From positions 7,810,501-7,874,500 of the forward strand of contig NZ_CP146101.1 of assembly GCF_037023745.1 (NCBI RefSeq): 64,000 bases of DNA. The letters run 5' to 3'. This document shows, in pieces, positions 48,836 to 64,000 of this stretch. A program made the position numbers and the translations under genes. How positions within the stretch are numbered: position 1 is the stretch's first letter; the number at the start of each line of letters is the position of its first letter. The stretch comes from Streptomyces sp. SCSIO 30461. GTDB taxonomy: Bacteria > Actinomycetota > Actinomycetes > Streptomycetales > Streptomycetaceae. Under the pieces are notes generated by a model. It was not told the DNA's origin and did not search any database. It saw only the letters and a program-made list of their open reading frames with translations.

Positions 48836-49308
48836 GCGGCGAGCACAGGCGCCAGCAGTTGCTCAGCGCCACCGCGCTGAGCGTCTTCCGGCTGAACGGG
48901 CAGTTCCTCGCCGTCGCCGACGAACTGGCCCGCCCCGTCGGACTGACCGCCGCCTGGTGGCAGGTACTCGGCGCCGTACTGGACGAGCCTCTGCCCGTGT
49001 CCGGCATCGCCCGCACCATGGGCATCACTCGCCAGAGCGTGCAGCGGATCGCGGACCTCCTGGTCACCAACGGGCTCGCCGAGTACCTGCCCAACCCCGC
49101 ACACCGGCGCGCCAAGCTGCTCCTCCCGACCGCCGAGGGCCGGGCCGCCATCGAGCGGATCGACCCCGGACACGCGGACCTCGCGACCCGCCTCGCCGCC
49201 GAGCTCGGTGATGCGACCTTCACGGAGACCGTGCGCGTACTGGAGCGACTGAGCGAGGCCATGGACACGCTGACACGCCACCCCACTGACCCGTCCGAGG
49301 GAATCTGA
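48832..49308 (+). CDS. MarR-family regulator coupled to the DJ-1 gene
   Basis: A 158-residue winged-helix regulator: LSVFRLNGQFLAVADELARP (dimer helix), then TAAWWQVLGAVLDEPLPVSG, and IARTMGITRQSVQRIADLLV is the recognition helix, with NPAHRRAKLLLPTAEG as the wing. It probably represses its own operon through the palindrome upstream of the DJ-1 gene, relieved by an unknown ligand, as is usual in such pairs. ATGA overlap with the preceding stop shows translational coupling. It is followed by the AT-rich promoter box of beta-helix gene A. Confidence 0.92.
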   Translation: MSGEHRRQQLLSATALSVFRLNGQFLAVADELARPVGLTAAWWQVLGAVLDEPLPVSGIARTMGITRQSVQRIADLLVTNGLAEYLPNPAHRRAKLLLPTAEGRAAIERIDPGHADLATRLAAELGDATFTETVRVLERLSEAMDTLTRHPTDPSEGI

Positions 49309-49332
49309 CTCTCGACACCACGACACGCTCCT

Positions 49333-49366
49333 ATTGTCCTATTTATGGCTTTTCTTGTGATTTGAT
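49333..49366 (+). promoter_or_regulatory. AT-rich 34-bp box upstream of beta-helix gene A
   Basis: The box reads ATTGTCCTATTTATGGC then TTTTCTTGTGATTTGAT. It is an AT-rich block in GC-rich surroundings and lies 70 bp before ATG 49437. The same box, with few changes, precedes four other paralogues at 64-71 bp, so it is probably their promoter or an operator within it. GTGACG/CGTCAC arms between the box and the start are also shared in part. Confidence 0.65.
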
Positions 49367-49436
49367 GTGTCGCACTTCCGCCCCTTCCGGACTAGGGGCG
49401 TGACGGCCCGTCACACAAGAAGGAGAGCTACGTCGG

Positions 49437-51491
49437 ATGTCTGAATCAGTGGGCACGGGTGCGGGTGCCGGTAAGAGCACCTCGCACCGTCCGAAGACGG
49501 CGGCGCTGAGCCGTCACTGGAAGGTTGCCGTTCTCGCCGCGGCCGGGTTCGCCACCATGGCGGCCACCACCACCATCGTCGGAATCCAGGACGCCGGAGC
49601 AGCCACGCAGGCCACGCCCGTCAAGGCCAGGACGGCGCCCGACGCCGCCCCGGCCGACGGCATGCCGAACGACGGCGAGCAAGGCGACTACTGGGCCAAC
49701 GCCGGCAATCCCGACCACTCCGGCGAGGGCGGGGGAGGCAAGGGCGACGACTACTCCCACTCCTGGGGCAACAACGACTCGGGAGACAAGGGCGGCTACG
49801 GCGGCAAGGGAGACAAGGGGGGCTACGGCGACAAGGGAGACAAGGGCGGCTACGGCGACAAGGGGGGCTACGGCGACAAGGACTACGGAGGCAACGACCA
49901 GGACAAGGGCGGCGCCTCCAAGGGCAACGAAGGCAAGGGGAACGAAGGCAAGGGCAACGAAGGCAAGGAGAACGGCGGCCAGTCCAAGGGCAACGAAGGC
50001 AAGGACGACTACTCCGACAAGGGAGACAAGGGGGGCTACGACAAGGGGGGCTACGGCGACAAGGGCGGCTACGACAAGGGCGGCTACGACAAGGGGGGCT
50101 ACGGCGACAAGGACTACGGAGGCAACGACCACGACAAGGGCGGCGACTGGGGCGGCAAGTCCGACAAGGACGACGACTACGGCGGCTACGGCGACAAGGG
50201 CGAAGGCCGCAGCGCCTCCAAGGGCAACGAAGGCAAGGAGAAGGGAGGCAAGGGCGACAGCTACGGCGACAAGGGCGGCAAGGGCGGTTATGACAAGGGC
50301 GACAAGGCCGGCCACGGCAAGAAGCAGGACAAGCGCGGTTGGTACGAGCGCAAGGTGGACTGCGACCCGAACGCCCTGATCGCGGCACTCGTCGACCTCA
50401 ACAACAACACCGGTGGTTCGCTGCGCCTCGCCCCGAACTGCACCTACACCCTGACCGCCAGCACGGACGGCAGCGGCCTGCCGCAGATCATCCAGCCGAT
50501 CAGCATTCACGGCAACGGATCCACCATCCAGCGCGCCGCCAATGCCGACCCGTTCCGCCTCTTCGACATCGGGTCCGGCGGCGAGCTCAAACTCAGCCAC
50601 CTCATCCTCACCCGCGGCAAGACCGTCGAGGGAGAGGGCGGCGGCGCCGTCTGGGTCCGGTCGGGAGGGCTCCTCGAAACGGAGATGGTCGCCTTCGTCA
50701 ACAACACCGTCGACAACATCGGCAGCGACAACGGTGGCGCCATCCTCAACGAGGGCATCACCAGGGTCAAGAAGACCACCTTCGAGGGCAACTCCGCCGA
50801 AGAAGGCTCAGCCATCTTCACCGATGACGCCGAGCTCGTGATGGACGACAGCAAGACCTACCGCAATATCGGCACGGACGGCTCCATCGAAACCGAGGGC
50901 GGTACCGCGACGATCACCAAGTCCGACATCAGCCACAACATCGGCGGTGGTGTCGAGTCCGACGGCGGCGTGACGGAGATCGAGAAGTCCCGGATCGCCT
51001 ACAACACCGAGGACGACGGAAGCGGCGCCGGCATCGACCACGAGGACGGCGGACTCCTCGTACGCGGTTCCTACATCCACGACAACACAGCGACCGGCGA
51101 GGGCGGCGGCGCCCAGCTGTCGGACGAGGCGGTCTTCGAGGACAGCAAGATCACCGACAACGTCTCCACCGGGGACGGCACCCTCGTCAACGTCGGTGGT
51201 GGAGGCGGTCTCGCCATCGCGGAAAATGTCGACAAGGTCGCCCTGCGGCGTGTGAAGGTCGACGGCAACCAGGCACCGGCCAACGACGCCCAGGGCGGCG
51301 GCATCCTCGTAAACGAACTCAGCGTCCTCGACCTCACCGACGTCAAGGTGACCCGGAACATCTCCGACGAGGAAGCCGGCGGCATCCAGAACGACGGCGA
51401 GGTCACGACCCAGGGCAAGATCCGGATCATCGACAACGTCCCGACCAACTGCGAAGACAGCGGCAACCCGGTGCCGAACTGCTTCGGCTGA
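49437..51491 (+). CDS. Secreted right-handed beta-helix protein A with a long Gly/Lys/Asp repeat linker
   Basis: A 684-residue protein. Residues 26-55 look like a Sec signal (SRHWKVAVLAAAGFATMAAT, cleavage probably after DAGA), preceded by a 25-residue basic n-region. Residues about 97-300 are a low-complexity stretch of GDKGGYGDKGGY and SKGNEGK units. From about 305 (DCDPNALIAALVDLNN) a parallel beta-helix follows with GGAILNEG, SAIFTDDAE and FEGNS motifs that resemble the GGA(I/L/V) and FxxN repeats of chlamydial Pmp proteins. The C-terminal tail is KIRIIDNVPTNC, then PVPNCFG. There is no LPXTG, so it is not sortase-anchored. It is the most divergent of six paralogues. GAAGGAG lies 11 bp before the ATG. 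Confidence 0.85.
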   Translation: MSESVGTGAGAGKSTSHRPKTAALSRHWKVAVLAAAGFATMAATTTIVGIQDAGAATQATPVKARTAPDAAPADGMPNDGEQGDYWANAGNPDHSGEGGGGKGDDYSHSWGNNDSGDKGGYGGKGDKGGYGDKGDKGGYGDKGGYGDKDYGGNDQDKGGASKGNEGKGNEGKGNEGKENGGQSKGNEGKDDYSDKGDKGGYDKGGYGDKGGYDKGGYDKGGYGDKDYGGNDHDKGGDWGGKSDKDDDYGGYGDKGEGRSASKGNEGKEKGGKGDSYGDKGGKGGYDKGDKAGHGKKQDKRGWYERKVDCDPNALIAALVDLNNNTGGSLRLAPNCTYTLTASTDGSGLPQIIQPISIHGNGSTIQRAANADPFRLFDIGSGGELKLSHLILTRGKTVEGEGGGAVWVRSGGLLETEMVAFVNNTVDNIGSDNGGAILNEGITRVKKTTFEGNSAEEGSAIFTDDAELVMDDSKTYRNIGTDGSIETEGGTATITKSDISHNIGGGVESDGGVTEIEKSRIAYNTEDDGSGAGIDHEDGGLLVRGSYIHDNTATGEGGGAQLSDEAVFEDSKITDNVSTGDGTLVNVGGGGGLAIAENVDKVALRRVKVDGNQAPANDAQGGGILVNELSVLDLTDVKVTRNISDEEAGGIQNDGEVTTQGKIRIIDNVPTNCEDSGNPVPNCFG
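49780..50335 (+). repeat. Degenerate tandem repeats encoding KGGYGDKG
   Basis: Units of 15 to 18 bp such as GGCGGCTACGGCGACAAG repeat across the gene's 5' third. They are in frame and code for the flexible linker, so copy number can change by slippage without frameshift. Paralogues C and E keep only short versions (GKGGHDKGGKGD), and B and D keep shorter Gly/Lys/Asp linkers. Confidence 0.75.
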
Positions 51492-51556
51492 TCCACCGTC
51501 ACGACACCCACAACCGGACCGGGTGACCCGAGCGGCCACCCGCGATCCCCTCTCTC

Positions 51557-51586
51557 CCCGCCCCCGGCATCCGCGCCGGGGGCGGG
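51557..51586 (+). terminator. Hairpin after beta-helix gene A
   Basis: CCCGCCCCCGGC at 51557-51568 pairs perfectly with 51575-51586 around a 6-nt loop. Confidence 0.8.
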
Positions 51587-51611
51587 CGCATACCCGTGAA
51601 ACGCCGTATTA

Positions 51612-51645
51612 ATTATCCTATTTATCTCTTTTCGCATGATCTACT
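51612..51645 (+). promoter_or_regulatory. AT-rich box upstream of beta-helix gene B (divergent copy)
   Basis: ATTATCCTATTTATCTCTTT, then TCGCATGATCTACT. It keeps the ATT-TCCTATTTAT and CTTTTC core of the shared box but differs at the 3' end. It lies 66 bp before the ATG at 51712. Confidence 0.5.
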
Positions 51646-51711
51646 GCACTTAGCTCCACTTCTTCCATACAGGGATACGACCGCACATCACACAGAAAGC
51701 GAGCACGCCGA

Positions 51712-53172
51712 ATGCCTGCACCACAGGGCGCCCGAACCCGCCTCAAGACGGCGCCGCCGAGCCGTCACCGGAAGCTGACCGCCCTCATCGCGGCCGGACT
51801 CACCACCATCGTCGGCACCGCGACGACCGCCGGAGCCACCGAGGCCGGAAACCTCAAGTCCGAGGGCTCACCCGGGACTCCCGCCGCCACGACCGAGGGG
51901 CACACCGGCAAGGCAGACGAGGGCGGACACGGCAAGGGCAACCGCAAGGCAGACCACGATGGCACGGGAAGCAGGAGCGGCGAGGGCGACAAGGGCCGCC
52001 TTGACGAGTACGGCGGCCGCCATGGTGACCGCGATGGAACCCACGTGGAGTGTGATCCGAATGCCCTGGTCGCGGCGCTGGTCGGCCTGAATGCGAAGCG
52101 GGGTGGGGAGCTGGTCCTGGCGAAGGACTGCCTCTACACGCTGACCGCGAACCAGGACGACAACGGTCTGCCGGAGATCACCCAGCCGATCACGATCCAC
52201 GGCAACGGTGCCACCATCCAGCGCGCCGCCAACGGGGACGACTTCCGGATCTTCGAGGTCGGAGTCGGTGGCGATCTGAAGCTCAGCCACCTCACCATCA
52301 CCCGCGGCAAACTCGGCGACGGCAGCGAGGGCGGCGGTATCAGGGTGGCCGCGGCGGGCCGTCTCGACCTCGACCACGTCACCCTCGACCGCAACTCCAC
52401 CGACCTCGAGAACTCGGACGGCGGTGCCGTCTACAACGAGGGCATCACCACCATCCGCCACAGCACCCTCAACAAGAACACGAGCGAGGACGGCGCCGCC
52501 GTCTACAACCAAGAGGGCAAGCTGGAGATCACCGACTCCAAGATCACCGGCAACATCAACGACCCCGACGACGGCTACGCCGCCCTCTTCAACGAAGGCG
52601 GAACGATCAAGGTCAAGAAGAGCCTGCTCTCCTACAACTACGGCAACTCGGGAGGCGCCCTCTACAACAGCTCCGGCGTCTCCGAGGTCGAGAAGAGCGC
52701 CCTCACGTACAACTTCGGCTACTACTACGGCGCCATCCACAGTGACGACTCGCTGTACGTCCGCGACAGCACGATCGCGTACAACACCGCGACCGACGGC
52801 GGCGGCGGCTCCGGTCTCCACTGGGCCGCGGCCTTCGACCGCACCAAGATCTACGGCAACGCCGTCACCAACGGCAGCGGCGGCGGCGCCAACGTGTCCA
52901 CCGACGACGACAACCCCGTCGTGTTCCGGAACAGCAAGATCCACGACAACCAGGCACCCGGCAACGGCCAAAGCGGAGGCGGCATCTACATCAGCGACGG
53001 CACGGTCAACCTGACCGACACCAAGGTGACCGGCAACATCTCCGACGAGGAGGCCGGCGGCGTCCACAACGAGGGCACCGTCACCACCAACGGCAAGGTC
53101 AGGATCATCGACAACGTCCCCACCAACTGCCAGGCCACCGGGACCAACCCCGTCCCCAACTGCTTCGGCTGA
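51712..53172 (+). CDS. Secreted right-handed beta-helix protein B
   Basis: A 486-residue paralogue. Its N-terminus (MPAPQGARTRLKTAPPSRHR, then KLTALIAAGLTTIVGTATTA) differs from the MSES-type start of A, C and D but keeps the SRH-K-hydrophobic layout. A short Gly/Lys/Asp linker (about 60-105) joins the conserved core at VECDPNALVAALVGLNAK near 111. The core has the repeats GGAVYNEGITTIRHSTL, DGAAVYNQEGKLEITDSK and GGALYNSSGVSEVEKS, and ends with KVRIIDNVPTNCQATG and PVPNCFG. The core is almost identical to C and D at DNA level, so the genes have exchanged sequence recently. It is probably expressed from its own box and ends at its own hairpin. Confidence 0.85.
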   Translation: MPAPQGARTRLKTAPPSRHRKLTALIAAGLTTIVGTATTAGATEAGNLKSEGSPGTPAATTEGHTGKADEGGHGKGNRKADHDGTGSRSGEGDKGRLDEYGGRHGDRDGTHVECDPNALVAALVGLNAKRGGELVLAKDCLYTLTANQDDNGLPEITQPITIHGNGATIQRAANGDDFRIFEVGVGGDLKLSHLTITRGKLGDGSEGGGIRVAAAGRLDLDHVTLDRNSTDLENSDGGAVYNEGITTIRHSTLNKNTSEDGAAVYNQEGKLEITDSKITGNINDPDDGYAALFNEGGTIKVKKSLLSYNYGNSGGALYNSSGVSEVEKSALTYNFGYYYGAIHSDDSLYVRDSTIAYNTATDGGGGSGLHWAAAFDRTKIYGNAVTNGSGGGANVSTDDDNPVVFRNSKIHDNQAPGNGQSGGGIYISDGTVNLTDTKVTGNISDEEAGGVHNEGTVTTNGKVRIIDNVPTNCQATGTNPVPNCFG

Positions 53173-53185
53173 CCCCACCCGATCA

Positions 53186-53217
53186 CCCTGCCCCCGGCGT
53201 CCACGCCGGGGGCAGGG
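53186..53217 (+). terminator. Hairpin after beta-helix gene B
   Basis: CCCTGCCCCCGGCGT pairs with ACGCCGGGGGCAGGG at 53203-53217 over 15 bp. The same hairpin follows gene C at an exact distance. Confidence 0.82.
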
Positions 53218-53262
53218 CCATGTCCGGGTACGGAGCGCGACACTTCGAAACACCCAGATCCG

Positions 53263-53296
53263 ATTGTCCGATTTTTGGCTTTTCATGTGTTTTGAT
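53263..53296 (+). promoter_or_regulatory. AT-rich 34-bp box upstream of beta-helix gene C
   Basis: ATTGTCCGATTTTTGGC then TTTTCATGTGTTTTGAT, 71 bp before ATG 53368. It is identical to the box of gene D, 1677 bp downstream, as part of an exactly duplicated intergenic region. Confidence 0.65.
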
Positions 53297-53367
53297 TTGA
53301 TCAGCTATCACCCTCTTTGCGATGTGGGGGTGTGACGGTCTGCCACACAGAAGGAGAGCCGGGTCGG

Positions 53368-54849
53368 ATGTCTGAATCACAGAGCACGGGCGCGGACGAG
53401 TCGCGCCGGTCAGTGACGGCGGTGCTGAGCCGTCACTGGAAGTTGGCGGTACTCGCGGCGGCCGGTTTCGCGACGGTCGCGGCCACCACCACGTTCGCCG
53501 CTGTCAGCCACCGTGAGACGGCGGCCGGGGCGCGGCAGGCCACCGCGCCCGTGGACGGCAAGGGACTGCCGGCCGGCGGGGGCGACAGCGGAGGCAAGGG
53601 AGGCGAGGGCAAGGGCGACCACGGCAAGGGCGGAAAGGGTGGCCACGACAAGGGTGGCAAGGGCGATGACAAGAAACACGGACACAAGTACGGCCGCCAT
53701 GGTGACCGCGATGGAACCCACGTGGAGTGTGATCCGAATGCCCTGGTCGCGGCGCTGGTCGGCCTGAATGCGAAGCGGGGTGGGGAGCTGGTCCTGGCGA
53801 AGGACTGCCTCTACACGCTGACCGCGAACCAGGACGACAACGGTCTGCCGGAGATCACCCAGCCGATCACCATCCACGGCAACGGTGCCACCATCCAGCG
53901 CGCCGCCAACGGGGACGACTTCCGGATCTTCGACGTCGGAGTCGGTGGCGATCTGAAGCTCAGCCACCTCACCATCACCCGCGGCAAACTCGGCAACGGC
54001 GAGGGCGGCGGTATCAGGGTGGCCGCGGCGGGTCGTCTCGACCTCGACCACGTCACCCTCGACCGCAACTCCACCGACCTCGGGAACTCGGACGGCGGTG
54101 CCGTCTACAACGAGGGCATCACCACCATCCGCCACAGCACCCTCAACAAGAACACGAGCGAAGACGGCGCTGCCGTCTACAACCAAGAGGGCAAGCTGGA
54201 GATCACCGACTCCAAGATCACCGGCAACATCAACGACCCCAACGACGGCTACGCAGCCCTCTTCAACGACGGCGGCACGATCAAGGTCAAGAAGAGCCTG
54301 CTCTCCTACAACTACGGCTACTTCGGAGGCGCCCTCTACAACGCCTCCGGCGTCTCCGAGGTCGAGAAGAGCGCCCTCACGTACAACTTCGCCTACTACG
54401 GCGGCGGCATCTACACCGATGACCCGCTGTACGTCCGCGACAGCACGATCGCGTACAACACCGCGAGCACCGACGGCGGTGGCGGCCTCAACCTGAATGA
54501 CGCGGCGGTGATCGACAACACCAAGATCTACGGCAACGCCGTCACCGACTTCTACGGCGGCGGTGTCTACGTGGCGACCAACGACGCCAACCCCGTCGTG
54601 TTCCGGAACAGCAAGATCCATGACAACCAGGCACCCGGCAACGGCTACAGCGGAGGCGGCATCTACATCGGCAATGGCACGGTCAATCTGACCGACACCA
54701 AGGTGACCGGCAACATCTCCGACGATGAAGCCGGCGGCGTCCACAACGAGGGCACCGTCACCACCAACGGCAAGGTCAGAATCATCGACAACGTCCCCAC
54801 CAACTGCCAGGCCACCGGGACCAACCCCGTCCCCAACTGCTTCGGCTGA
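53368..54849 (+). CDS. Secreted right-handed beta-helix protein C
   Basis: A 493-residue paralogue: MSESQSTGADESRRSVTAVL, then SRHWKLAVLAAAGFATVAAT (signal region), a short linker with GKGGKGGHDKGGKGDDKK, and the core from VECDPNALVAALVGLNAK near residue 118. GGAVYNEG, AAVYNQEG, GGALYNASG and GGGIYTDDP mark the helix turns, and the protein ends KVRIIDNVPTNCQATG, PVPNCFG. Its signal region matches E almost exactly, although E lies 8 kb away on the other strand. ATG 53368 has GAAGGAG upstream. The frame is open further upstream only because the duplicated promoter region lacks stops. Confidence 0.85.
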   Translation: MSESQSTGADESRRSVTAVLSRHWKLAVLAAAGFATVAATTTFAAVSHRETAAGARQATAPVDGKGLPAGGGDSGGKGGEGKGDHGKGGKGGHDKGGKGDDKKHGHKYGRHGDRDGTHVECDPNALVAALVGLNAKRGGELVLAKDCLYTLTANQDDNGLPEITQPITIHGNGATIQRAANGDDFRIFDVGVGGDLKLSHLTITRGKLGNGEGGGIRVAAAGRLDLDHVTLDRNSTDLGNSDGGAVYNEGITTIRHSTLNKNTSEDGAAVYNQEGKLEITDSKITGNINDPNDGYAALFNDGGTIKVKKSLLSYNYGYFGGALYNASGVSEVEKSALTYNFAYYGGGIYTDDPLYVRDSTIAYNTASTDGGGGLNLNDAAVIDNTKIYGNAVTDFYGGGVYVATNDANPVVFRNSKIHDNQAPGNGYSGGGIYIGNGTVNLTDTKVTGNISDDEAGGVHNEGTVTTNGKVRIIDNVPTNCQATGTNPVPNCFG

Positions 54850-54862
54850 CCCCACCCGATCA

Positions 54863-54894
54863 CCCTGCCCCCGGCGTCCACGCCGGGGGCAGGG
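54863..54894 (+). terminator. Hairpin after beta-helix gene C
   Basis: Same 15-bp stem as behind gene B, CCCTGCCCCCGGCGT and its complement, at the same offset from the stop. Confidence 0.82.
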
Positions 54895-54939
54895 CCATGT
54901 CCGGGTACGGAGCGCGACACTTCGAAACACCCAGATCCG

Positions 54940-54973
54940 ATTGTCCGATTTTTGGCTTTTCATGTGTTTTGAT
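54940..54973 (+). promoter_or_regulatory. AT-rich 34-bp box upstream of beta-helix gene D
   Basis: Identical to the box of gene C; 71 bp before ATG 55045. Confidence 0.65.
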
Positions 54974-55044
54974 TTGATCAGCTATCACCCTCTTTGCGAT
55001 GTGGGGGTGTGACGGTCTGCCACACAGAAGGAGAGCCGGGTCGG

Positions 55045-56511
55045 ATGTCTGAATCACAGAGCACGGGCGCGGACGGCGGCGCGGGCGAGCCGCGCCAGTC
55101 GTTGACGGCGGCGCTGAGCCGTCACTGGAAGGTGACGGTTCTGGCGGCGGGCTTCGCCACGGTGGCGGCCACCACGACGATGGCGGTCGTCCATGACGCA
55201 CGGTCGACGTCCGCTGCCGCAGACGCCAAAGGTGCCGCGGTGAGCGGTGAGGGCGGGCGGACCGGGGACAAGGGCGACCGAGGCGGCAAGGACGGCCACG
55301 GGAAAGGCCGCACGAGTGGCCGTGACAGGGATGGTCACGGCAGCGGCAAGCACAGTCGCCCCTCCCATGACGCCACTTATGTGGAGTGTGATCCGAATGC
55401 CCTGGTCGCGGCGCTGGTCGGCCTGAATGCGAAGCGGGGTGGGGAGCTGGTCCTGGCGAAGGACTGCCTCTACACGCTGACCGCGAACCAGGACGACAAC
55501 GGTCTGCCGGAGATCACCCAGCCGATCACCATCCACGGCAACGGTGCCACCATCCAGCGCGCCGCCAACGGGGACGACTTCCGGATCTTCGACGTCGGAG
55601 TCGGTGGCGATCTGAAGCTCAGCCACCTCACGATCACCCGCGGCAAACTCGGCCAGTTCGGCGAGGGCGGCGGTATCAGGGTGGCCGCGGCGGGCCGTCT
55701 CGACCTCGACCACGTCACCCTCGACCGCAACTCCACCAACCTCGAGCTCTCGAACGGCGGTGCCATCTACAACGAGGGCATCACCACCATCCGCCACAGC
55801 ACCCTCAGCAAGAACACGGGCGAGGACGGCGCCGCCGTCTACAACGAAGCAGGCAAGCTGGAGATCACCGACTCCAAGATCACCGGCAACATCAGCGACC
55901 CCAACGACGGCTACACCGCCCTCTTCAACGACGGCGGCACGATCAAGGTCAAGAAGAGCCTGCTCTCCTACAACTACGGCTACGTGGGAGGCGCCCTCTA
56001 CAACAGCTCCGGCGTCTCCGAGGTCGAGAAGAGCGCCGTCGTGCACAACTTCGCCTACTACGGCGGTGGCATCCACAGCTATGACCCGCTGTACGTCCGC
56101 GACAGCACGATCGCGTACAACACCGCGAGCAGCGGCGGCGGTGGCGGCCTCGGCCTGAACAACGCGGCGGTGATCGACAACACCAAGATCTACGGCAATG
56201 TCGCGACCGATAACGACGGCGGTGGTGTCTACGTGTTCACCGACGACGACAACCCCGTCGTGTTCCGGAACAGCAAGATCCACGACAACCAGGCACCCGG
56301 CAACGGCCAAAGCGGAGGCGGCATCTACATCAGCGACGGCACGGTCAACCTGACCGACACCAAGGTGACCGGCAACATCTCCGACGAGGAGGCCGGCGGC
56401 GTCCACAACGAGGGCACCGTCACCACCAACGGCAAGGTCAGAATCATCGACAACGTCCCCACCAACTGCCAGGCCACCGGGACCAACCCCGTCCCCAACT
56501 GCTTCGGCTGA
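55045..56511 (+). CDS. Secreted right-handed beta-helix protein D
   Basis: A 488-residue paralogue. It starts MSESQSTGADGGAGEPRQSL and has SRHWKVTVLAAGFATVAATT as signal core. The linker (GDKGDRGGKDGHGKGRTSGR) differs from C, and the beta-helix core begins at VECDPNALVAALVGLNAK near 112. A stretch with GGAIYNEGITTIRHSTLSKN, AAVYNEAGKLEITDSK and GGGIHSYDPLYVRD has closer matches in E than in C. It ends in the same KVRIIDNVPTNCQATG, PVPNCFG tail. Its 3' flank (to about 56610) is repeated inverted behind gene E. Confidence 0.85.
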   Translation: MSESQSTGADGGAGEPRQSLTAALSRHWKVTVLAAGFATVAATTTMAVVHDARSTSAAADAKGAAVSGEGGRTGDKGDRGGKDGHGKGRTSGRDRDGHGSGKHSRPSHDATYVECDPNALVAALVGLNAKRGGELVLAKDCLYTLTANQDDNGLPEITQPITIHGNGATIQRAANGDDFRIFDVGVGGDLKLSHLTITRGKLGQFGEGGGIRVAAAGRLDLDHVTLDRNSTNLELSNGGAIYNEGITTIRHSTLSKNTGEDGAAVYNEAGKLEITDSKITGNISDPNDGYTALFNDGGTIKVKKSLLSYNYGYVGGALYNSSGVSEVEKSAVVHNFAYYGGGIHSYDPLYVRDSTIAYNTASSGGGGGLGLNNAAVIDNTKIYGNVATDNDGGGVYVFTDDDNPVVFRNSKIHDNQAPGNGQSGGGIYISDGTVNLTDTKVTGNISDEEAGGVHNEGTVTTNGKVRIIDNVPTNCQATGTNPVPNCFG

Positions 56512-56559
56512 CCCCATCCACCGGCAGGGGCGGCCCACCGGCCGCCCCGGCCCCCGAAC

Positions 56560-56594
56560 CGCCCGCCCCCGGCTCCCCTCACCGGGGGCGGGCG
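56560..56594 (+). terminator. Hairpin after beta-helix gene D
   Basis: CGCCCGCCCCCGG at 56560-56572 pairs with CCGGGGGCGGGCG at 56582-56594. It belongs to a 3' flank shared, in inverted orientation, with gene E. Confidence 0.82.
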
Positions 56595-56605
56595 CATGTC
56601 CGGGC

Positions 56606-56971
56606 CTATGCGCCGGCCGTGTCCGCCCGGAGCCTCGGCCCGGCCTCCACCAGCGACCCCATGGCGTACTCCAGCGCCTGCGTGAACCGCGTTTCGCGCA
56701 GCCGGCGTTCCGCCTCGGACCCGTCCACTGCCACGTAGAGCTGCAGGAAGGCGGGCGTCGCCGGCCGGCCCTTCGGGCTGTCGAAGCCCATCACCTTGGC
56801 CTCGCCGATACGCAGTTCGACATGGCCGATCGCACCGTCCGGCGTCTCGAAGCGCCCCGGCTCCTCAGCGCCGAAAGCGGGCTGGACGTAGTCGGTGAGG
56901 CCTGCCGTGTCCTTGCAGATGATCCACGGTGTGACGGTGCTGTATCCCTCGGGAACCGGTTGGACGGCCAT
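56606..56971 (-). CDS. VOC/PhnB-like protein with an internal deletion
   Basis: A 121-residue protein. It begins MAVQPVPEGYSTVTPWIICK and has GLTDYVQPAFGAEEPGRFET and HVELRIGEAKVMGFDS, the first half of a glyoxalase/VOC protein (PhnB type). It continues through FLQLYVAVDGSEAERRLRET and FTQALEYAMGSLVEAG, the C-terminal helix usual in these proteins. The segment normally lying between (about 40 residues with the second metal-binding half, GDRVGRVRDPLGN-like) is missing, so the fold is probably incomplete. It lies just inside the D/E inverted pair and starts at ATG 56971. Confidence 0.7.
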   Translation of the reverse strand: MAVQPVPEGYSTVTPWIICKDTAGLTDYVQPAFGAEEPGRFETPDGAIGHVELRIGEAKVMGFDSPKGRPATPAFLQLYVAVDGSEAERRLRETRFTQALEYAMGSLVEAGPRLRADTAGA

Positions 56972-57075
56972 GATCGTCTCCTTGTGTCAGGGGAAGGCAG
57001 CGAGAACGACAGCAGGCCGGATACGGGTCAACTCCTGTCCTCGTTTCCCGCGTTCGCAGAAGAGGGGGACCACGT

Positions 57076-57738
57076 ATGAACGTCACGCTCGCCGAGGAGA
57101 TAGCACTGCTCTCGCTGGACGACGAGTCCGGCGAGGCGAGAAGCCGCCAGTCCGCGGGCTGGGCGGTGGCCGGTGCGCTGCTGCTGGAGCTGGTCATGGC
57201 GGGACGCATCGCGGTCGCGGACGGGCGGCTCAGTGTCACCGACACGACCCCGACCGGTGTCCCGCTGCTCGACGGGCGGTTGGAGCTGCTCGCCACCTGG
57301 GCGAACCGGGGTGGCAGGCGCCGGGTCGCCGACTGGCTGACCAAGGACCAGTCGAAGGCCGTGTCCGCCACGATCGAGAGCCTGTGCGCCCGGGGTCTGG
57401 TGGTCGAGGAGCGACGCAAGGCGCTCGGGATCTTCCCGGTGCGCCGCTATCCGGAGGCGGACGGCACGGTCGAGCGGGAGCTGCGGGCGCGACTGGCGGA
57501 CGTGGTGCTCCAGGGAGCCGTGCCCGATGCCCGCACCTCGGGTCTGATCGCATTGCTCCAGGGCGCCGAACTGCACGGGATCTCCTTCCCCGGAGTGCCG
57601 AAGAAGCAGGTCGGGCCGCGGATGACGGAGATCGCGTCCGGCCAGTGGGCGGGGGACAGCCTGCGCGAGGCCATCCGCAACATGCAGGCGGCGATGGTGG
57701 CGATCACGACGACGGTCGTGGTGACCGCGCTGACCTGA
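57076..57738 (+). CDS. GPP34-family protein (GOLPH3/Vps74-like)
   Basis: A 220-residue protein matching the GPP34 fold: LAEEIALLSLDDESGEA at the start, GWAVAGALLLELVMAGRIAV, then RKALGIFPVRRYPEADGTVE, ADVVLQGAVPDARTSGLIAL and EAIRNMQAAMVAITTTVVV. In eukaryotes GOLPH3/Vps74 binds phosphoinositide and retains Golgi enzymes; the streptomycete proteins are widespread with little known function, probably lipid-binding. No signal peptide is seen. ATG 57076 begins the homology, and CapA is convergent with 10 bp between them. Confidence 0.9.
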   Translation: MNVTLAEEIALLSLDDESGEARSRQSAGWAVAGALLLELVMAGRIAVADGRLSVTDTTPTGVPLLDGRLELLATWANRGGRRRVADWLTKDQSKAVSATIESLCARGLVVEERRKALGIFPVRRYPEADGTVERELRARLADVVLQGAVPDARTSGLIALLQGAELHGISFPGVPKKQVGPRMTEIASGQWAGDSLREAIRNMQAAMVAITTTVVVTALT

Positions 57739-57748
57739 CGCCGCCGGG

Positions 57749-58879
57749 TCAGCGACGCCACCAGCGCAGGGTCAGATACCCGGCCTGCCTCGGATCCGGC
57801 TCCACCTGTGTCCCGTAGGCGCGCCCGGCCCGGCTGAGCACCTCGCACAGCCAGGCGCGGTCGGCGGCGGAGGCGTGCTCCAGCCGCATCCGCCGGGCGC
57901 GCAGGGGCGCGATGCGCAGCTCGGTCAGCTCGCCGGTGTCCGGGGCGAGCACGGGGAAGTACATCAGCCGAAGGTCGGCGCGGTAGCGCTCGTAGCCGGG
58001 GATGCCCTCGTAGTCGTCGACCAGGTCGCCGCAGCCGTAGAGGATCAGCTTGCCCCGGTACACCTGGATGGGCCTGGGATGGTGGGACGAGTGGCCGTGG
58101 ACGAGGTCCACGCCGCCGTCCACCAGTCGGCGGGCGAACGCGGCCTGGCTCCCCGAGACCCCGAAGCCCCAGTTCGATCCCCAGTGGATCGAGACCACGG
58201 TCAGATCGCCGTCCTCGCGCACGGCCTCAAGGCGCCGCGCGAGGGCGTCGGCGCTGCGGGCGGAGAGGTCGGGCACGAAGTCGACTCCCGGTCTGTCCTC
58301 CCCCGCCGCCCAGCGGGACGGGACCCCGGCCGACGCCATCGCGCAGGACAGTACGAGCACCCGGCCGCGGCCGTCACCCGTGTCGGCGGCGGCGGGGCGG
58401 CGTGCCGCCGCCGCGTCCCGTCCGGCTCCCGCCGGGCCGAGACCGGCGCGGCTGAGCACGTCCACGGTCTCCTCCAGGCCGCGGCGCCCGAAGTCGAGGA
58501 CGTGGTTGTTCGCCAGGGCGCAGACATCCGGCCGGACGGTGGCGAGCAGCGGGAGGTTGTCGGGGTGCATGCGGTAGGCGACGGCCTTGCCGGGCGCGAA
58601 GTCGTCGCTGGTGGTGACGCTGCTCTCCAGGTCGATGACGCGTACGTCGGGGCGCACGGCATCGAGGATCTCCAGGGCGTCTCCCCAGGGCCAGGAGTAG
58701 TCCACGGGCTGGGGAATTCCGCCGTTGACGGCCTCCGCGAGGGCCACGTAGTCGCGGGCGTCGCGTATGCGTTCCTCGCGCAGGGCGGGATCTCCGGGGT
58801 GCGGCAGTATCTGGTCGACGCCCCGGCCCGACATGACGTCGCCGCTGAGGAACAGCGTGACGGGGGCAGCCAGGGCCAT
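57749..58879 (-). CDS. CapA/PgsA-family metallophosphoesterase-like protein
   Basis: A 376-residue protein: LFLSGDVMSGRGVDQILP at the start (metal-binding D), VRVIDLESSVTTSDD, VCALANNHVLDFGRRGLEET (NNH motif), VVSIHWGSNWGFGVS and VHGHSSHHPRPIQVYRGKLI. These are the CapA blocks in order. CapA proteins participate in poly-gamma-glutamate capsule synthesis or act on cell-wall or lipid phosphates, but many stand-alone versions in Streptomyces are unexplained. No pgsB/pgsC neighbours are present. ATG 58879. The first hydrophobic stretch may be a weak anchor. It lies between two regulatory clusters. Confidence 0.88.
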   Translation of the reverse strand: MALAAPVTLFLSGDVMSGRGVDQILPHPGDPALREERIRDARDYVALAEAVNGGIPQPVDYSWPWGDALEILDAVRPDVRVIDLESSVTTSDDFAPGKAVAYRMHPDNLPLLATVRPDVCALANNHVLDFGRRGLEETVDVLSRAGLGPAGAGRDAAAARRPAAADTGDGRGRVLVLSCAMASAGVPSRWAAGEDRPGVDFVPDLSARSADALARRLEAVREDGDLTVVSIHWGSNWGFGVSGSQAAFARRLVDGGVDLVHGHSSHHPRPIQVYRGKLILYGCGDLVDDYEGIPGYERYRADLRLMYFPVLAPDTGELTELRIAPLRARRMRLEHASAADRAWLCEVLSRAGRAYGTQVEPDPRQAGYLTLRWWRR

Positions 58880-58939
58880 GGTGCATATTTTCGCACCATC
58901 ATCATTTTCCCGCCGGATGGGAAATACGGCTCGATCGAT

Positions 58940-59356
58940 TCAGGAAAGCGGTCTCAGCACTTCGGACGCCGCCGACCGCAGCAGCAGCGGATGCACGAAC
59001 CGGTGCGCTTCGGCCGGGGGAAAGCGCCATGACAGCGGCCAGGTGTGGCCTTTGAGAGCCGGCACCGGCACGAAACTGATGCAGCCGGGCGCCGAGTTGA
59101 AGCGGGTCACCCCGCGCGGCCAGACCCGGTGCGACGTGCTGCCCACGGGGAGCAGGAAGTAGACGCCCTGCCGCCCGTTGGCCTCCATGACCACCGGGCC
59201 AGGGTCGCCGCCCGTCAGCTCCCCGACGAGGTCGGCGAGATCGCGGCCCTGGTCCCCGTCGACGCGCACCGCGTCGAATTGGACGCCTGCTTTTCGCAGC
59301 TGGAATCCGCGTTCGGGGACCCAGCCGATCCGGATGTGGCGAGTTTCTGCAATCAC
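58940..59356 (-). CDS. Hypothetical protein paired with a WhiJ-type regulator
   Basis: A 138-residue protein with VIAETRHIRIGWVPERGFQL, QFDAVRVDGDQGRDLADLVG, VVMEANGRQGVYFLLPVGST and HPLLLRSAASEVL. It resembles the streptomycete proteins commonly divergent from WhiJ-like XRE genes. They have unknown function, although similar loci control sporulation and antibiotic production. GTG 59356 starts the homology. The XRE gene begins 145 bp away in the other direction, sharing a regulatory gap. Confidence 0.65.
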   Translation of the reverse strand: MIAETRHIRIGWVPERGFQLRKAGVQFDAVRVDGDQGRDLADLVGELTGGDPGPVVMEANGRQGVYFLLPVGSTSHRVWPRGVTRFNSAPGCISFVPVPALKGHTWPLSWRFPPAEAHRFVHPLLLRSAASEVLRPLS

Positions 59357-59501
59357 GTATCCAGTCTGACGCTTCCCCGTTAGCGTTTTCCGTGACACGG
59401 CCGAGGTGTGGTGAGTTGGTTGAACAGCGCAAACACGCCTTGATTCGGGTCGAATTCGGCGTGGCCCGGTAGTGACCGGTTGAGTCCGGTCGAGGCGAAC
59501 G

Positions 59502-60347
59502 GTGATCGGTATGGCACGCGCGGAGAACAAGGAAACGGCGGGTTCGGCGACACGTCTGGTCGCCGAGATGATGCGCAAGCTGCGGCTGCGGGCCAAGCTC
59601 ACCCAGCCGCAGCTCGGCGAGCGGATCGGGTATTCGGGGGCAGCGATCAGCGCGGCGGAGACCTGCGCTCAGGCCCCGAGCGACGAGATGCTGGTGGGGC
59701 TGGAGCGCGAGATCGGGGACGGCCTCGGCTTCTTCGAGGAGGCGCGGGAGCATGTCCGGCGGGAGAAGTATCCGAAGCAGTTCCAGGACTATTCGGGTCT
59801 TGAGCAGAAGGCGGTCGGGCTGCATCTGTACTCGACTCTGGTCGTGCACGGGTTGTTCCAGACCCCGGAGTACGCTCGGGCGCTGATCGGCGGGGGTTTT
59901 CCACCGCTGCCGGAGCAGCGGGTGGAGGAGCTGGTCGAGGCGCGGACGGCACGGCAGGTGCTGTTCGACCGGCAGCCGGTGCCCCTGATCGAGCTGGTCC
60001 TTGAGGAGTCGGTGTTACGGCGCACCATCGGCGGCGCGGGGATCATGCGCGACCAGCTGCTGTTCCTGGCGAAGTGCGCCCGGCGGCGCAATGTGACCCT
60101 GCAGGTGCTGCCGCTGGACGCGGGGATCGGCGGCGAGCACGCGGGCGACAACGGCGATCTGAACCTGCTGGAGACCCCGGAGCATGACCACCTGGTCTAT
60201 CTGGAGATCCAGTTCGAGAGCCTGCTGATCAACGACCCCGCAAAGGTCAGTACGTTCGCCCAGCGATATGCGAAGATCCGGGCACAGGCCCTGGGCCCTC
60301 GTGAATCGCTGGGCCTTATCGAGCAGTTGGCAGGAGAGCAGAGATGA
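59502..60347 (+). CDS. XRE-type regulator with DUF5753 (WhiJ-like)
   Basis: A 281-residue protein. The N-terminal helix-turn-helix (LTQPQLGERIGYSGAAISAA, about 31-50) is followed by a DUF5753 ligand-like domain (YSGLEQKAVGLHLYSTLVVH, FQTPEYARALIGGG, QPVPLIELVLEESVLRRTIG, ITLQVLPLD-like VTLQVLPLDAGIG). WhiJ-like regulators form switchable complexes with the small DUF397 protein encoded next to them and influence development. The DUF397 gene follows with an ATGA overlap. A TTA codon at 60015-60017 (residue 172) makes translation dependent on the bldA tRNA. Confidence 0.92.
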   Translation: MIGMARAENKETAGSATRLVAEMMRKLRLRAKLTQPQLGERIGYSGAAISAAETCAQAPSDEMLVGLEREIGDGLGFFEEAREHVRREKYPKQFQDYSGLEQKAVGLHLYSTLVVHGLFQTPEYARALIGGGFPPLPEQRVEELVEARTARQVLFDRQPVPLIELVLEESVLRRTIGGAGIMRDQLLFLAKCARRRNVTLQVLPLDAGIGGEHAGDNGDLNLLETPEHDHLVYLEIQFESLLINDPAKVSTFAQRYAKIRAQALGPRESLGLIEQLAGEQR

Positions 60348-60580
60348 ACGACAGCCTGCACTGGTTCAAGTCCAGCTACAGCGGCAGCGGCGGCGGCGAA
60401 TGCGTCGAGGTGGCCTTCGACTGGCGCACGTCCTCCTACAGCGACTCCAGCGGCGGTAACTGCGTCGAGGTCGCCGCCTGCCCCCACTCCGTGCGTGTCC
60501 GCGACTCCAAGGTCAGCGACGGCCCCGTCTTCTCCGTGGACACCTCGGCCTGGTCGGCCTTCCTCTCCTGGCAGAGCTGA
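60344..60580 (+). CDS. DUF397 protein with a duplicated motif
   Basis: A 78-residue DUF397 protein, the small partner of WhiJ-like regulators. Usual members have one W-x-KSSYS-GG-CVEVA half. Here two appear in tandem: LHWFKSSYSGSGGGECVEVA at 5-24 and WRTSSYSDSSGGNCVEVA at 27-44. VRVRDSKVSDGPVFSVDTSA follows as the standard second half. It overlaps the XRE gene stop by ATGA. Confidence 0.92.
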   Translation: MNDSLHWFKSSYSGSGGGECVEVAFDWRTSSYSDSSGGNCVEVAACPHSVRVRDSKVSDGPVFSVDTSAWSAFLSWQS

Positions 60581-60647
60581 GCCGAGAGCTGAGCCGACCG
60601 CCCGGGCTCGTCACAGCCGCCTCGTCCGTTCCGTCAGAGGAGTACCA

Positions 60648-61571
60648 GTGGAACGGACGGGGAGAGTGTGCGCGATGAACGACGGCGAGTACCTGGCGGA
60701 GCGCTTCGAGGCCCATCGGAGCCAGCTGCGGGCGGTGGCCTACCGGATGCTCGGCTCGCTCAGCGAGGCCGAGGACGCCGTCCAGGAGGCCTGGCTGAAG
60801 CTCAGCCGCTCGGACACCAGCGAGGTCGCGAACCTCGGCGGCTGGCTGACCACCGTGGTCGGCCGGGTGTGCCTGGACATGCTGCGCTCCCGCACCTCCC
60901 GGCGGGAAGACCCGCTCGACGTGTATCTGCCCGACCCCGTGGTCAGCAGCATCGAGGGCACCGACCCCGAGCAGCAGGCCCTGGTCGCCGACTCGGTCGG
61001 GCTGGCCCTGCTCGTCGTGCTGGAGGCGCTGCCACCCGCCGAGCGGCTGGCGTTCGTGCTGCACGACATGTTCGCCGTGCCCTTCGACGAGATCGCGCCG
61101 ATGGTGGGCCGCACCCCCGCCGCAGCGCGCCAGCTCGCCAGCCGCGCCCGGCGGCGCGTCCAGGGTGCGGCCCCGGCCCCTGACGCCGACCTCACCCGTC
61201 AGCGTGAAGTCGTGGACGCCTTCCTCACCGCCTCACGCGGTGGTGACTTCGACGCCCTGCTGTCCCTGCTCGACCCGGACATCGAGCTGCGCGTGGACGG
61301 CGGTGCGATGCCGGCCCCCGAGGGCACCTCGAAGCTGGTGCGCGGGGCGCACGCGGTGGCCAGCCAGGCGTTCATGTACCGCAGCTTCTCGCCGTTCGCC
61401 CGGCTCGCGCTCGTCAACGGCGCCCCGGGGCTGGTCACGGTGCCCGAGGGCGGCACCGCGGCCGCCGTGATGGCCTTCACCGTCGGTCCGCACGGCAAGG
61501 TGGTCCGGCTGGACATCCTTGCCGACCCCGACCGGCTGACGGGCATCGATGTGACACTGCTGGACACCTGA
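60648..61571 (+). CDS. ECF41-type RNA polymerase sigma factor with SnoaL-like tail
   Basis: A 307-residue sigma factor. Region 2 lies near 30-75 (LRAVAYRMLGSLSEAEDAVQ, EAWLKLSR), followed by LGGWLTTVVGRVCLDMLRS and region 4 (EALPPAERLAFVLHDMFAVP, FDEIAPMVGRTPAAARQLAS). The last 100 residues form a SnoaL/NTF2-like domain (VVDAFLTASRGGDFDALLSL, LDPDIELRVDGG). This is the ECF41 layout, in which the tail regulates sigma activity in place of a separate anti-sigma. GTG 60648 has GAGGAG 5 bp upstream; ATG 60675 is a weaker alternative. It is convergent with beta-helix gene E. Confidence 0.92.
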   Translation: MERTGRVCAMNDGEYLAERFEAHRSQLRAVAYRMLGSLSEAEDAVQEAWLKLSRSDTSEVANLGGWLTTVVGRVCLDMLRSRTSRREDPLDVYLPDPVVSSIEGTDPEQQALVADSVGLALLVVLEALPPAERLAFVLHDMFAVPFDEIAPMVGRTPAAARQLASRARRRVQGAAPAPDADLTRQREVVDAFLTASRGGDFDALLSLLDPDIELRVDGGAMPAPEGTSKLVRGAHAVASQAFMYRSFSPFARLALVNGAPGLVTVPEGGTAAAVMAFTVGPHGKVVRLDILADPDRLTGIDVTLLDT

Positions 61572-61587
61572 GCTGCACTCGGACATG

Positions 61588-61622
61588 CGCCCGCCCCCGG
61601 TGAGGGGAGCCGGGGGCGGGCG
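61588..61622 (-). terminator. Hairpin after beta-helix gene E
   Basis: CGCCCGCCCCCGG at 61588-61600 pairs with CCGGGGGCGGGCG at 61610-61622. It is the mirror copy of the hairpin behind gene D and may also end the sigma-factor transcript. Confidence 0.82.
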
Positions 61623-61670
61623 GTTCGGGGGCCGGGGCGGCCGGTGGGCAGCCCCTGCCGGTGGGTGGGA

Positions 61671-63170
61671 TCAGCCGAAGCAGTTGGGGACGGGGTTGGT
61701 CCCGGTGGCCTGGCAGTTGGTGGGGACGTTGTCGATGATCCTGACCTTGCCGTTGGTGGTGACGGTGCCCTCGTTGTGGACGCCGCCGGCCTCCTCGTCG
61801 GAGATGTTGCCGGTCACCTTGGTGTCGGTCAGGTTGACCGTGCCGTTGTCGATGTAGATGCCGCCTCCGCTTTGGCCGTTGCCGGGTGCCTGGTTGTCGT
61901 GGATCTTGCTGTTCCGGAACACGACGGGGTTGTCGTCGCTGGTGAACACGTAGACACCGCCGCCGTCGCTATCGGTCGCGACATTGCCGTAGATCTTGGT
62001 GTTGTCGATCACCGCCGCGTTGTTCAGGCCGAGGCCGCCACCGCCGCCGCTGCTCGCGGTGTTGTACGCGATCGTGCTGTCGCGGACGTACAGCGAGTCA
62101 TCGGTGTAGATACCACCGCCGCCGTAGGCGAAGTTGTGCACGACGGCGCTCTTCTCGACCTCGGAGACGCCGGAGGCGTTGTAGAGGGCGCCTCCCGCGT
62201 TGCCGTAGTTGTAGGAGAGCAGGCTCTTCTTGACCTTGATCGTGCCGCCGTCGTTGAAGAGGGCGGCGTAGCCGTCGTTGGGGTCGCTGATGTTGCCGGT
62301 GATCTTGGAGTCGGTGATCTCCAGCTTGCCCTCTTCGTTGTAGACGGCGGCGCCGTCCTCGCCCGTGTTCTTGCTGAGGGTGCTGTGGCGGATGGTGGTG
62401 ATGCCCTGGTTGTAGATGGCACCGCCGTCCGAGTTCTCGAGGTTGGTGGAGTTGCGGTCGAGGGTGACGTGGTCGAGGTCGAGACGGCCCGCCGCGGCCA
62501 CCCTGATACCGCCGCCCTCGCTCCCTTGAGAGCTGAGTTTGCCGCGGGTGATCGTGAGGTGGCTGAGCTTCAGATCGCCACCGACTCCGACCTCGAAGAT
62601 CCGGAAGTCGTCCCCGTTGGCGGCGCGCTGGATGGTGGCACCGTTGCCGTGGATCGTGATCGGCTGGGTGATCTCCGGCAGACCGTTGTCGTCCTGGTTC
62701 GCCGTCAGCGTGTAGAGGCAGTCCTTCGCCAGGACCAGCTCCCCACCCCGCTCCGCATTCAGATCCACCAGGTTGGCGATCAGGTCGTTCGGGTCGCATT
62801 CCACATGCGTGGCGTCGGCATCGCCGTGGTGGCCGTACTTCTGTCCGTGTTTCTTGCCATCGCCCTTGCCACCCTTGTCGTGGCCGCCCTTTCCGCCCTT
62901 GCCGTGGTCGCCCTTGCCCTCGCCTCCCTTGCCTCCGCTGTCGCCCCCGCCGGCCGGCAGTCCCTTGCCGTCCACGGGCGCGGTGGCCTGCCGCGCCCCG
63001 GCCGCCGTCTCACGGTGGCTGACAGCGGCGAACGTGGTGGTGGCCGCGACCGTCGCGAAACCGGCCGCCGCGAGTACGGCCAACTTCCAGTGACGGCTCA
63101 GCACCGCCGTCACTGACCGGCGCGACTCGTCCGCGCTCGCGTCGGCGCCTGTGTCCTGTGCTTCAGACAT
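61671..63170 (-). CDS. Secreted right-handed beta-helix protein E (inverted copy)
   Basis: A 499-residue paralogue on the minus strand. Its start (MSEAQDTGADASADESRRSV, then TAVLSRHWKLAVLAAAGFAT) and linker (PVDGKGLPAGGGDSGGKGGE) match gene C, but THVECDPNDLIANLVDLNAE is unique, and the 3' half (AAVYNEEGKLEITDSKITGN, GGGGLGLNNAAVIDNTKIYG) is closest to D. It is therefore a mosaic. It ends KVRIIDNVPTNCQATG, PVPNCFG like the others. ATG 63170 has GAAGGAG upstream and the AT-rich box 64 bp before it. Confidence 0.85.
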   Translation of the reverse strand: MSEAQDTGADASADESRRSVTAVLSRHWKLAVLAAAGFATVAATTTFAAVSHRETAAGARQATAPVDGKGLPAGGGDSGGKGGEGKGDHGKGGKGGHDKGGKGDGKKHGQKYGHHGDADATHVECDPNDLIANLVDLNAERGGELVLAKDCLYTLTANQDDNGLPEITQPITIHGNGATIQRAANGDDFRIFEVGVGGDLKLSHLTITRGKLSSQGSEGGGIRVAAAGRLDLDHVTLDRNSTNLENSDGGAIYNQGITTIRHSTLSKNTGEDGAAVYNEEGKLEITDSKITGNISDPNDGYAALFNDGGTIKVKKSLLSYNYGNAGGALYNASGVSEVEKSAVVHNFAYGGGGIYTDDSLYVRDSTIAYNTASSGGGGGLGLNNAAVIDNTKIYGNVATDSDGGGVYVFTSDDNPVVFRNSKIHDNQAPGNGQSGGGIYIDNGTVNLTDTKVTGNISDEEAGGVHNEGTVTTNGKVRIIDNVPTNCQATGTNPVPNCFG

Positions 63171-63234
63171 ACGACGTAGCTCTCCTTCTGTGTGACAAGC
63201 CGTCAGTTGCTTCTGAATAGGGGAAGTAAGCCAG

Positions 63235-63268
63235 ATCAAATCACACGAAAAGCCAAAAATAGGACAAT
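63235..63268 (-). promoter_or_regulatory. AT-rich 34-bp box upstream of beta-helix gene E
   Basis: On the minus strand, ATTGTCCTATTTTTGGC then TTTTCGTGTGATTTGAT, 64 bp before ATG 63170. Confidence 0.65.
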
Positions 63269-63321
63269 CAGCTGTCGGCGTTTCGCCGTGTCACCTCTTC
63301 GGAGTCAGCGCATCCGAACAT

Positions 63322-63358
63322 GCGTCCGCCCCCGGCGTGGGGAGCCGGGGGCGGACGC
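63322..63358 (-). terminator. Hairpin after beta-helix gene F
   Basis: GCGTCCGCCCCCGGC at 63322-63336 pairs with GCCGGGGGCGGACGC at 63344-63358 around a 7-nt loop. Confidence 0.82.
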
Positions 63359-63386
63359 AGTCCGAGGCCGTGCGTGGTGGCTGCGG

Positions 63387-64000
63387 TCAGCCGAAGCAGT
63401 CGGGGACGGGGTTGGTCCCGGTGGCCTGGCAGTTGGTGGGGACGTTGTCGATGATTCTGACCTTGCCGTTGGTGGTGACGGTGCCGTTGTTCTGGACGCC
63501 GCCGGCCTCCCGGTCGGAGATGTTGCCGGTCACCTTGGTGTCGGTCAGATTGACCCTGCCACCGCTACTGATGGAGATACCGCCACCCGACAACCCGTTG
63601 CCGGGTGCCTGGTTGTCGTGGATCTCGCTGTTCCGGAACACCACGGTGTTGCCGGCGTTGGCGACGTGGGCACCACCGCCCTCGCTGTCGATCGCGACAT
63701 TGCCGTAGATCCTGGTGTTCTCGATCACCGCGGCATCGTTCAGGATGAGGCCGCCGCCATCGGCAGCCACGGTGTTGTGGGCCACGGTGCTGTCGCGCAC
63801 GTATACCGGGTCGTCGACATAGATGCCACCGCCGTAGTAGCCGAAGTTGTACGTGAAGGCGCTCTTCTCGACCTCGGCCACGCCCTCTCTGTTGTAGAGG
63901 CCGCCGCCGTAGTAGCCGTAGTTGTAGGAGAGCAGGCTCTTCTTGACCTTGGTCGTTCCGTTCTCGTTGTAGAGGGCGGGGTAGCCGAGGTCGGGGTCGT
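63387..64000 (-). CDS. Secreted right-handed beta-helix protein F (5' end beyond window)
   Basis: The C-terminal 203 residues of a sixth paralogue; the frame is open through the window edge. It reads GYPALYNENGTTKVKKSLLS, GGGLYNREGVAEVEKSAFTY, GGGIYVDDPVYVRDSTVAHN, and closes with KVRIIDNVPTNCQATG, PVPDCFG. It diverges more from B-E than they do from one another (NREGVAEV, SGGRVNLTD). The signal and linker lie off the edge. Confidence 0.85.
   Translation of the reverse strand, partial: DPDLGYPALYNENGTTKVKKSLLSYNYGYYGGGLYNREGVAEVEKSAFTYNFGYYGGGIYVDDPVYVRDSTVAHNTVAADGGGLILNDAAVIENTRIYGNVAIDSEGGGAHVANAGNTVVFRNSEIHDNQAPGNGLSGGGISISSGGRVNLTDTKVTGNISDREAGGVQNNGTVTTNGKVRIIDNVPTNCQATGTNPVPDCFG

Follow-up and report, generated by a model that had tools for sequence, protein, structure and literature searches.

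What does a Streptomyces chromosome do with several similar copies of a gene for a beta-helix protein, gathered near one of its ends? The question is raised by a window of 64,000 bp (the whole stretch analysed, positions 7,810,501–7,874,500 of the single 8,047,498-bp contig of Streptomyces sp. SCSIO 30461). At 49437–64000, about 0.17 Mb from the contig end, it holds an array of six paralogous open frames, A to F, of which F runs past the window end. An earlier note made without database searches, here called the sequence-only reading, had described this array as a repertoire of secreted beta-helix paralogs; the six genes are real, lie where it placed them, and do form a multigene repertoire. 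Counting gene H, situated at 2.34 Mb, 5.5 Mb from the array, the genome has seven intact members. The core identity is 80–93% among B–F and about 50% between A and D, in both cases far above chance. Our best explanation, with a probability of roughly 0.6, is that these genes constitute a multigene family of exported beta-helix proteins that is co-regulated, carries its cores on linkers, has a structural or adhesive role, and has had its cores spread by recombination.

A shared upstream module

Alignments reveal a module of about 130 bp upstream of all seven intact genes. It consists, in this order, of a CGACAC box, a ATTRTCCGATTT box, CTTTTC, TTTGATnTG, the dyad GTGACGGnCCRTCAC, AGAAGGAGAGC and the start codon. 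Its GC content is much lower than that of the adjoining 150 bp upstream. In a comparison of six of the twelve copies, pairwise identity was 0.46–0.71 (15 pairs), against 0.40–0.53 for the next 150 bp upstream and 0.37–0.48 for shuffled modules; the module was more alike than the upstream stretch in 14 of the 15 pairs, the exception being the pair E/W1.

A sequence-only model (R1) was built from the seven own copies and five copies from a second Streptomyces genome, G254. At E ≤ 10 it matches the own genome at exactly seven places, all of them before the seven genes; as these are training copies, only the absence of further matches is news. The modules of A (49311–49439, 92.9 bits), B (51582–51714, 62.8 bits, the lowest own score), C (53234–53370) and D (54911–55047) are on the plus strand, the latter two being identical, with 89.2 bits each; that of E (63168–63296, 80.0 bits) is on the minus strand. 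In G254, four places outside the training set were found, all four before family genes, and the module precedes nine of the ten strong family genes, five of these carrying training copies.

A dedicated promoter is the most plausible reading of the module. Since the same module stands before each intact gene, a single regulator or sigma factor would most likely activate the arrayed and dispersed copies together. An operon including the genes between D and E is thought unlikely, because every family gene has a module of its own. An RNA leader was not supported (consensus energy −0.24 kcal/mol, double changes in one of nine pairs), and the module is treated as DNA. The BldM group I palindrome, TCACcCgnncGgGTGA (PMC4125116), was also considered; by eye, the only comparison made, the module dyad runs in the opposite orientation.

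Protein architecture and predicted fold

In every protein, a hydrophobic stretch at the N-terminus and a Gly/Lys/Asp linker are combined with a predicted right-handed beta-helix that has four fixed cysteines. In an alignment of 80 sequences (A and 79 relatives chosen by hand from 120 listed ones, partial and most distant ones omitted) the four cysteine columns are invariant (80/80), and 77 members end in C-x-G. The conserved pair at each core end probably forms a disulfide, two per protein (C115–C141 and C475–C486 in the numbering of D). The sequence-only reading had noticed the two tail cysteines, which are conserved as part of this set of four. Its other motifs hold for most genes: the start is SRHWK in five of six (SRHRK in B), the core begins with CDPNAL in four (CDPNDL in E and F), and the tail has PTNC in all six and PNCFG in five, F ending in PDCFG. 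The GGA-x-YN turns are present in some proteins, just 0–2 per protein and none in A. The proposed likeness to GGA/FxxN helices of the Pmp kind is hardly borne out in the motifs: the seven own proteins contain GGA[ILV] once or twice and FxxN 0–2 times, and the PMP repeat of Pfam stays below its gathering score of 20.6 bits in the window, with 16.8–19.9 bits for A, B, C and E and no match for D and F. B–F exceed the 25.9-bit cut-off of Beta_helix (PF13229), A being unmatched. None of the 80 members has an LPXTG-like sorting motif within its C-terminal 60 residues, in agreement with the earlier observation.

Structure prediction, which the sequence-only reading had proposed as a check, was done for one member per genus. 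The models of the gene D protein and of P0080 from Salinispora tropica (predicted local distance difference test score, pLDDT, of at least 90 for 356 of 432 residues) are both beta-helices without a barrel, and prediction thus backs the idea of exported beta-helix proteins. The solved folds nearest to the family include AlgE epimerases and tailspikes; the highest-ranking Foldseek matches of P0080 comprise alginate epimerases, Rhombotarget A, tailspikes and pectin enzymes, and its listed matches are for the most part known beta-helix folds. The family profile also matches, at positions 255–431 with E 3.5e-10, chain U2 ('Transmembrane protein, putative') of PDB entry 7w5z, presumably a Tetrahymena mitochondrial complex.

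A surface location is likely. The hydrophobic segment would take the protein out of the cytoplasm, either as a cleaved signal peptide or as a retained anchor; the flexible linker, about 40–250 residues long, would span the wall; and the beta-helix of about 370 residues, with its cysteine pair at each end, would be exposed on the outside or released into the matrix. There it may serve as a structural or adhesive element, which is likelier than an enzyme or a pore; adhesion or filament formation, as put forward in the sequence-only reading, is a possible function.

Mosaic structure of genes B–F

Genes B–F are mosaic by the pairwise homoplasy index (PHI) test (0/5000). In a core tree with 40 rows, B–F group with full support together with P0006, a protein of another strain, which stands beside B (100/98). 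A species-pure B–F clade seen in the first tree was withdrawn, as that tree had dropped eight of 65 rows, P0006 included. P0006 is likewise the closest match to the first 75 residues of B, so that B looks like its orthologue throughout. The first 75 residues of F are closest to P0012, the core of which sits in another clade. Since the F core, like those of C, D and E, is B-like, F is read as a mosaic in which the B-like core and the N-terminus differ in origin, and other genes are likely composed in the same manner.

The DNA upstream of C is identical to that upstream of D; their N-termini differ at 18 of 42 fourfold sites, against 0/76 and 2/61 in the cores (these counts skip codons with a difference in the first two bases). 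Gene E has the N-terminus as in C, the core start as in F and the core centre as in D. The contrast between C and D, the patchwork of E and the PHI result together indicate that segments moved between copies. In the own and the G254 arrays, the core ends are relatively constant and the middle is variable; in one G254 pair, silent differences number 0/65 at the ends and 17/61 in the middle (p 1.2e-06), this being the only one of 36 pairs that passes the Bonferroni correction. On the preferred account, recombination has put one B-like core on C–F, with some N-terminal segments keeping separate origins, and gene conversion has both spread the cores and kept them alike.

The ratio of nonsynonymous to synonymous rates (dN/dS) in the core is below 1 in every estimate: 0.46–0.97 among B–F by the Nei–Gojobori method, 0.445–0.458 for the whole core by the GY+F1X4 codon model, and 0.161, 0.160 and 0.046 for three core parts by GY+F3X4.

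Relatives and comparison with known systems

A protein search yielded 317 proteins. Among the 120 listed are relatives from several strains of Streptomyces, which frequently have many of them each; in one strain a run bears successive locus tags (ACWCXB_23030 to 23050). Remoter relatives come from Salinispora and from Micromonospora, and some of them bear the source name 'Polymorphic outer membrane protein'. The best 80 of 191 confirmed stretches in a scan of named genomes gave 71 loci, mostly in Salinispora, then in Actinopolymorpha, Rugosimonospora and Micromonospora. In three genomes of Salinispora, 28, 34 and 22 matches reach E ≤ 1e-20; they are both clustered and dispersed, a few genes being counted in two rows. 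The Salinispora proteins P0068–P0072 and P0080 match at E 4.8e-49 to 1.6e-35, with 35–40% identity over 77–95% of the query. Actinopolymorpha pittospori has six family matches within about 15 kb (contig 1, 10476385–10491023), near the end of a 10.56-Mb contig. Of the 20 records that a BLAST search of a plasmid collection returned, none reached 60% identity or spanned 80% of the query. Within Streptomyces the family is rare, being present in four of 295 genomes at E ≤ 1e-60, a count bounded by the five candidates scored per genome.

The sequence-only reading had proposed the array as the best candidate for an undescribed system. As stated, this is not supported: the Salinispora relatives were published by Penn and Jensen in 2012 as a large paralogous family of 30 'Pmp' genes in S. 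tropica and 28 in S. arenicola, likely to be beta-barrel pores and making up 28–30 of the 58–60 proposed 'marine adaptation genes' (PMC3314556). Among the open-licence papers listed by literature searches, judged by title and the beginning of the abstract, a single one deals with the Salinispora family and none with Streptomyces members. The Streptomyces genes are a branch of an actinobacterial family, probably the one named 'Pmp' in Salinispora. The Salinispora proteins share the core, the four cysteines, the NC...C-x-G end, the N-terminal hydrophobic segment, the high copy number and, for P0080, the predicted fold, which is the beta-helix and not the published barrel. In contrast to them, the Streptomyces proteins carry a Gly/Lys/Asp linker, which reaches great length in some (A); the copies are fewer in Streptomyces, and the upstream module gave no match at the tested loci of Salinispora. 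What is new here is the shared module and the mosaicism of B–F; the family itself is known, although uncharacterised.

Chlamydial Pmp proteins have beta-helices with GGA-type turns, FxxN being the partner motif. These adhesins, which are type V autotransporters (PMC2997323), also form a multigene family; unlike them, the Streptomyces proteins lack a C-terminal barrel and almost lack FxxN. Rhombotarget A of Acinetobacter (TIGR04212; 9cdu/9cdv) is different too: B–E score 16–17 bits against a cut-off of 295, A and F are unmatched, and the Streptomyces proteins end in C-x-G, with no GlyGly-CTERM seen by eye. PfbA of Streptococcus pneumoniae is a Gram-positive beta-helix adhesin with a wall-sorting anchor, which has no counterpart in the family (0/80).

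Alternative explanations

Several observations weigh against the explanation preferred here. At E ≤ 0.001, the module was matched in just two of the 382 Streptomyces genomes scanned. In 295 genomes at E ≤ 0.01, the only other matches were two short marginal ones, in G114 and G068 (46–54 nt, E 0.004–0.008), with no family-like frame just downstream; these absences are bounded by the eight and 11 candidates, respectively, scored per genome. The module was not found in two stretches of G034 nor at 19 tested loci of the 71 (Salinispora and other genera); in G296 there is a partial 67-nt match (E 0.01), 53 nt before one family gene, and one strong family gene of G254 (C1:4278257–4279600) has no match. 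The module thus marks one branch rather than the whole family. A consensus scan of 49200–56700 gave no sigma-70-type promoter, and no clear signal-peptidase site was noticed by eye in the Streptomyces N-termini. As for recombination, the PHI test is not significant in G254, neither for the four array genes (1685/2000) nor for nine genes (390/2000; one of the ten strong family genes is missing because of the motif pattern). With P0006 inside it, the B–F core clade is not strictly single-genome. Orthology across strains holds at the N-terminus for B and F (and H) and does not for C, D and E as a whole, C and E being mutually nearest and D being nearest to E. The dN/dS estimates depend on the model, and none supports positive selection. 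Finally, Y143, R172, R180 and R408 are conserved at 91–100% (Y143 and R180 invariant), D116 and D189 at 86–88%, and these residues could in principle be catalytic.

Such residues, together with the epimerases among the nearest folds, are what favours secreted polysaccharide lyases, epimerases or hydrolases, a common enzymatic use of the beta-helix. We consider this quite unlikely: no column of D, E, H or K is conserved at 90% and no polysaccharide lyase (PL) or glycoside hydrolase (GH) family of Pfam is found in the 80 sequences, and the fold by itself proves no function. Homologues with known enzymatic activity would have spoken against the sequence-only reading; with no lyase family among the 80 members, it was not refuted on this count. 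The published proposal of type V autotransporters or beta-barrel pores (PMC3314556) gains some weight from the PMP repeat, which matches 31 of the 80 members at E ≤ 0.001, and nevertheless seems very improbable. None of the 80 has a barrel, lyase or anchor family of Pfam, the four Pfam families matching any of them do not include the C-terminal autotransporter barrel, and neither model contains a barrel. Gram-positive bacteria have no conventional outer membrane, which counts against a pore as well. Moreover, osmotic lysis is linked in the same paper to the loss of mscL, and a later one cites rescue by mscL (PMC4018334).

The mosaic paralogs, with constant core ends and a variable middle, may also be explained as a surface-variation or self-marking system, in which variable cores are swapped behind fixed promoters and N-termini and diversify the colony surface. 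This is rather unlikely, as neutral gene conversion (concerted evolution) explains the pattern too, selection and the G254 test lend no support, and all seven intact copies have the promoter-like module, with no sign of silent cassettes and a single expression site. Lastly, the genes could be subterminal duplicates that have no role today, as the rarity of the family in Streptomyces, a decayed copy and the position near the contig end would allow. This is improbable given seven intact frames, a module shared by dispersed loci and by two genomes, the conservation of four cysteines and the tail down to Salinispora, and the core dN/dS below 1.

Organisation of the array

The sequence-only reading had treated 49437–64000 as one locus. 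Both arms indeed hold family genes, but about 5 kb of unrelated genes separate the rightward A–D from the inverted E, F and a broken copy. Gene A (49437–51491, plus strand) encodes 684 aa, with the hydrophobic segment, a G/K/D/Y-rich repeat linker of about 250 aa, the core and a CFG end. It is followed on the same strand by B (51712–53172, 486 aa), the P0006-like gene; C (53368–54849, 493 aa); and D (55045–56511, 488 aa), the modelled protein. On the minus strand are E (61671–63170, 499 aa), the patchwork gene, and F (63387–64000), present in the window by its C-terminal part, its start lying at genome position 7875314 with a module of its own. The broken copy, with internal stops, is beside F outside the window (genome 7875442–7876066; about 1443–2067 in L034); the scan with the module model gave no match at it.

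Between the arms (57076–61571) are genes for GPP34, PGA_cap (CapA-like), an XRE/DUF5753 regulator and a sigma-70 factor with a SnoaL-like domain. The dispersed gene H (L035:3112–4521) has nearby a gene with a putative type VII secretion system (T7SS) signal domain, PF21725. Reading the gene lists, without systematic comparison, we saw no partner genes common to the array and the loci of G254, G296 and G034.

Significance

The Salinispora 'marine adaptation' Pmp genes are read by the models as encoding beta-helix surface proteins, not pores, and arrays of family genes are now shown to exist in Streptomyces as well. It is unlikely, but conceivable, that these genes are a mycelial Gram-positive surface-diversification system, with the same private promoter on all copies, recombining display cores and separate export and linker segments. 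If so, related colonies would wear differing beta-helix coats, which may serve self-recognition, phage evasion or selective adhesion. In any case, the private upstream module makes the question of expression directly testable.

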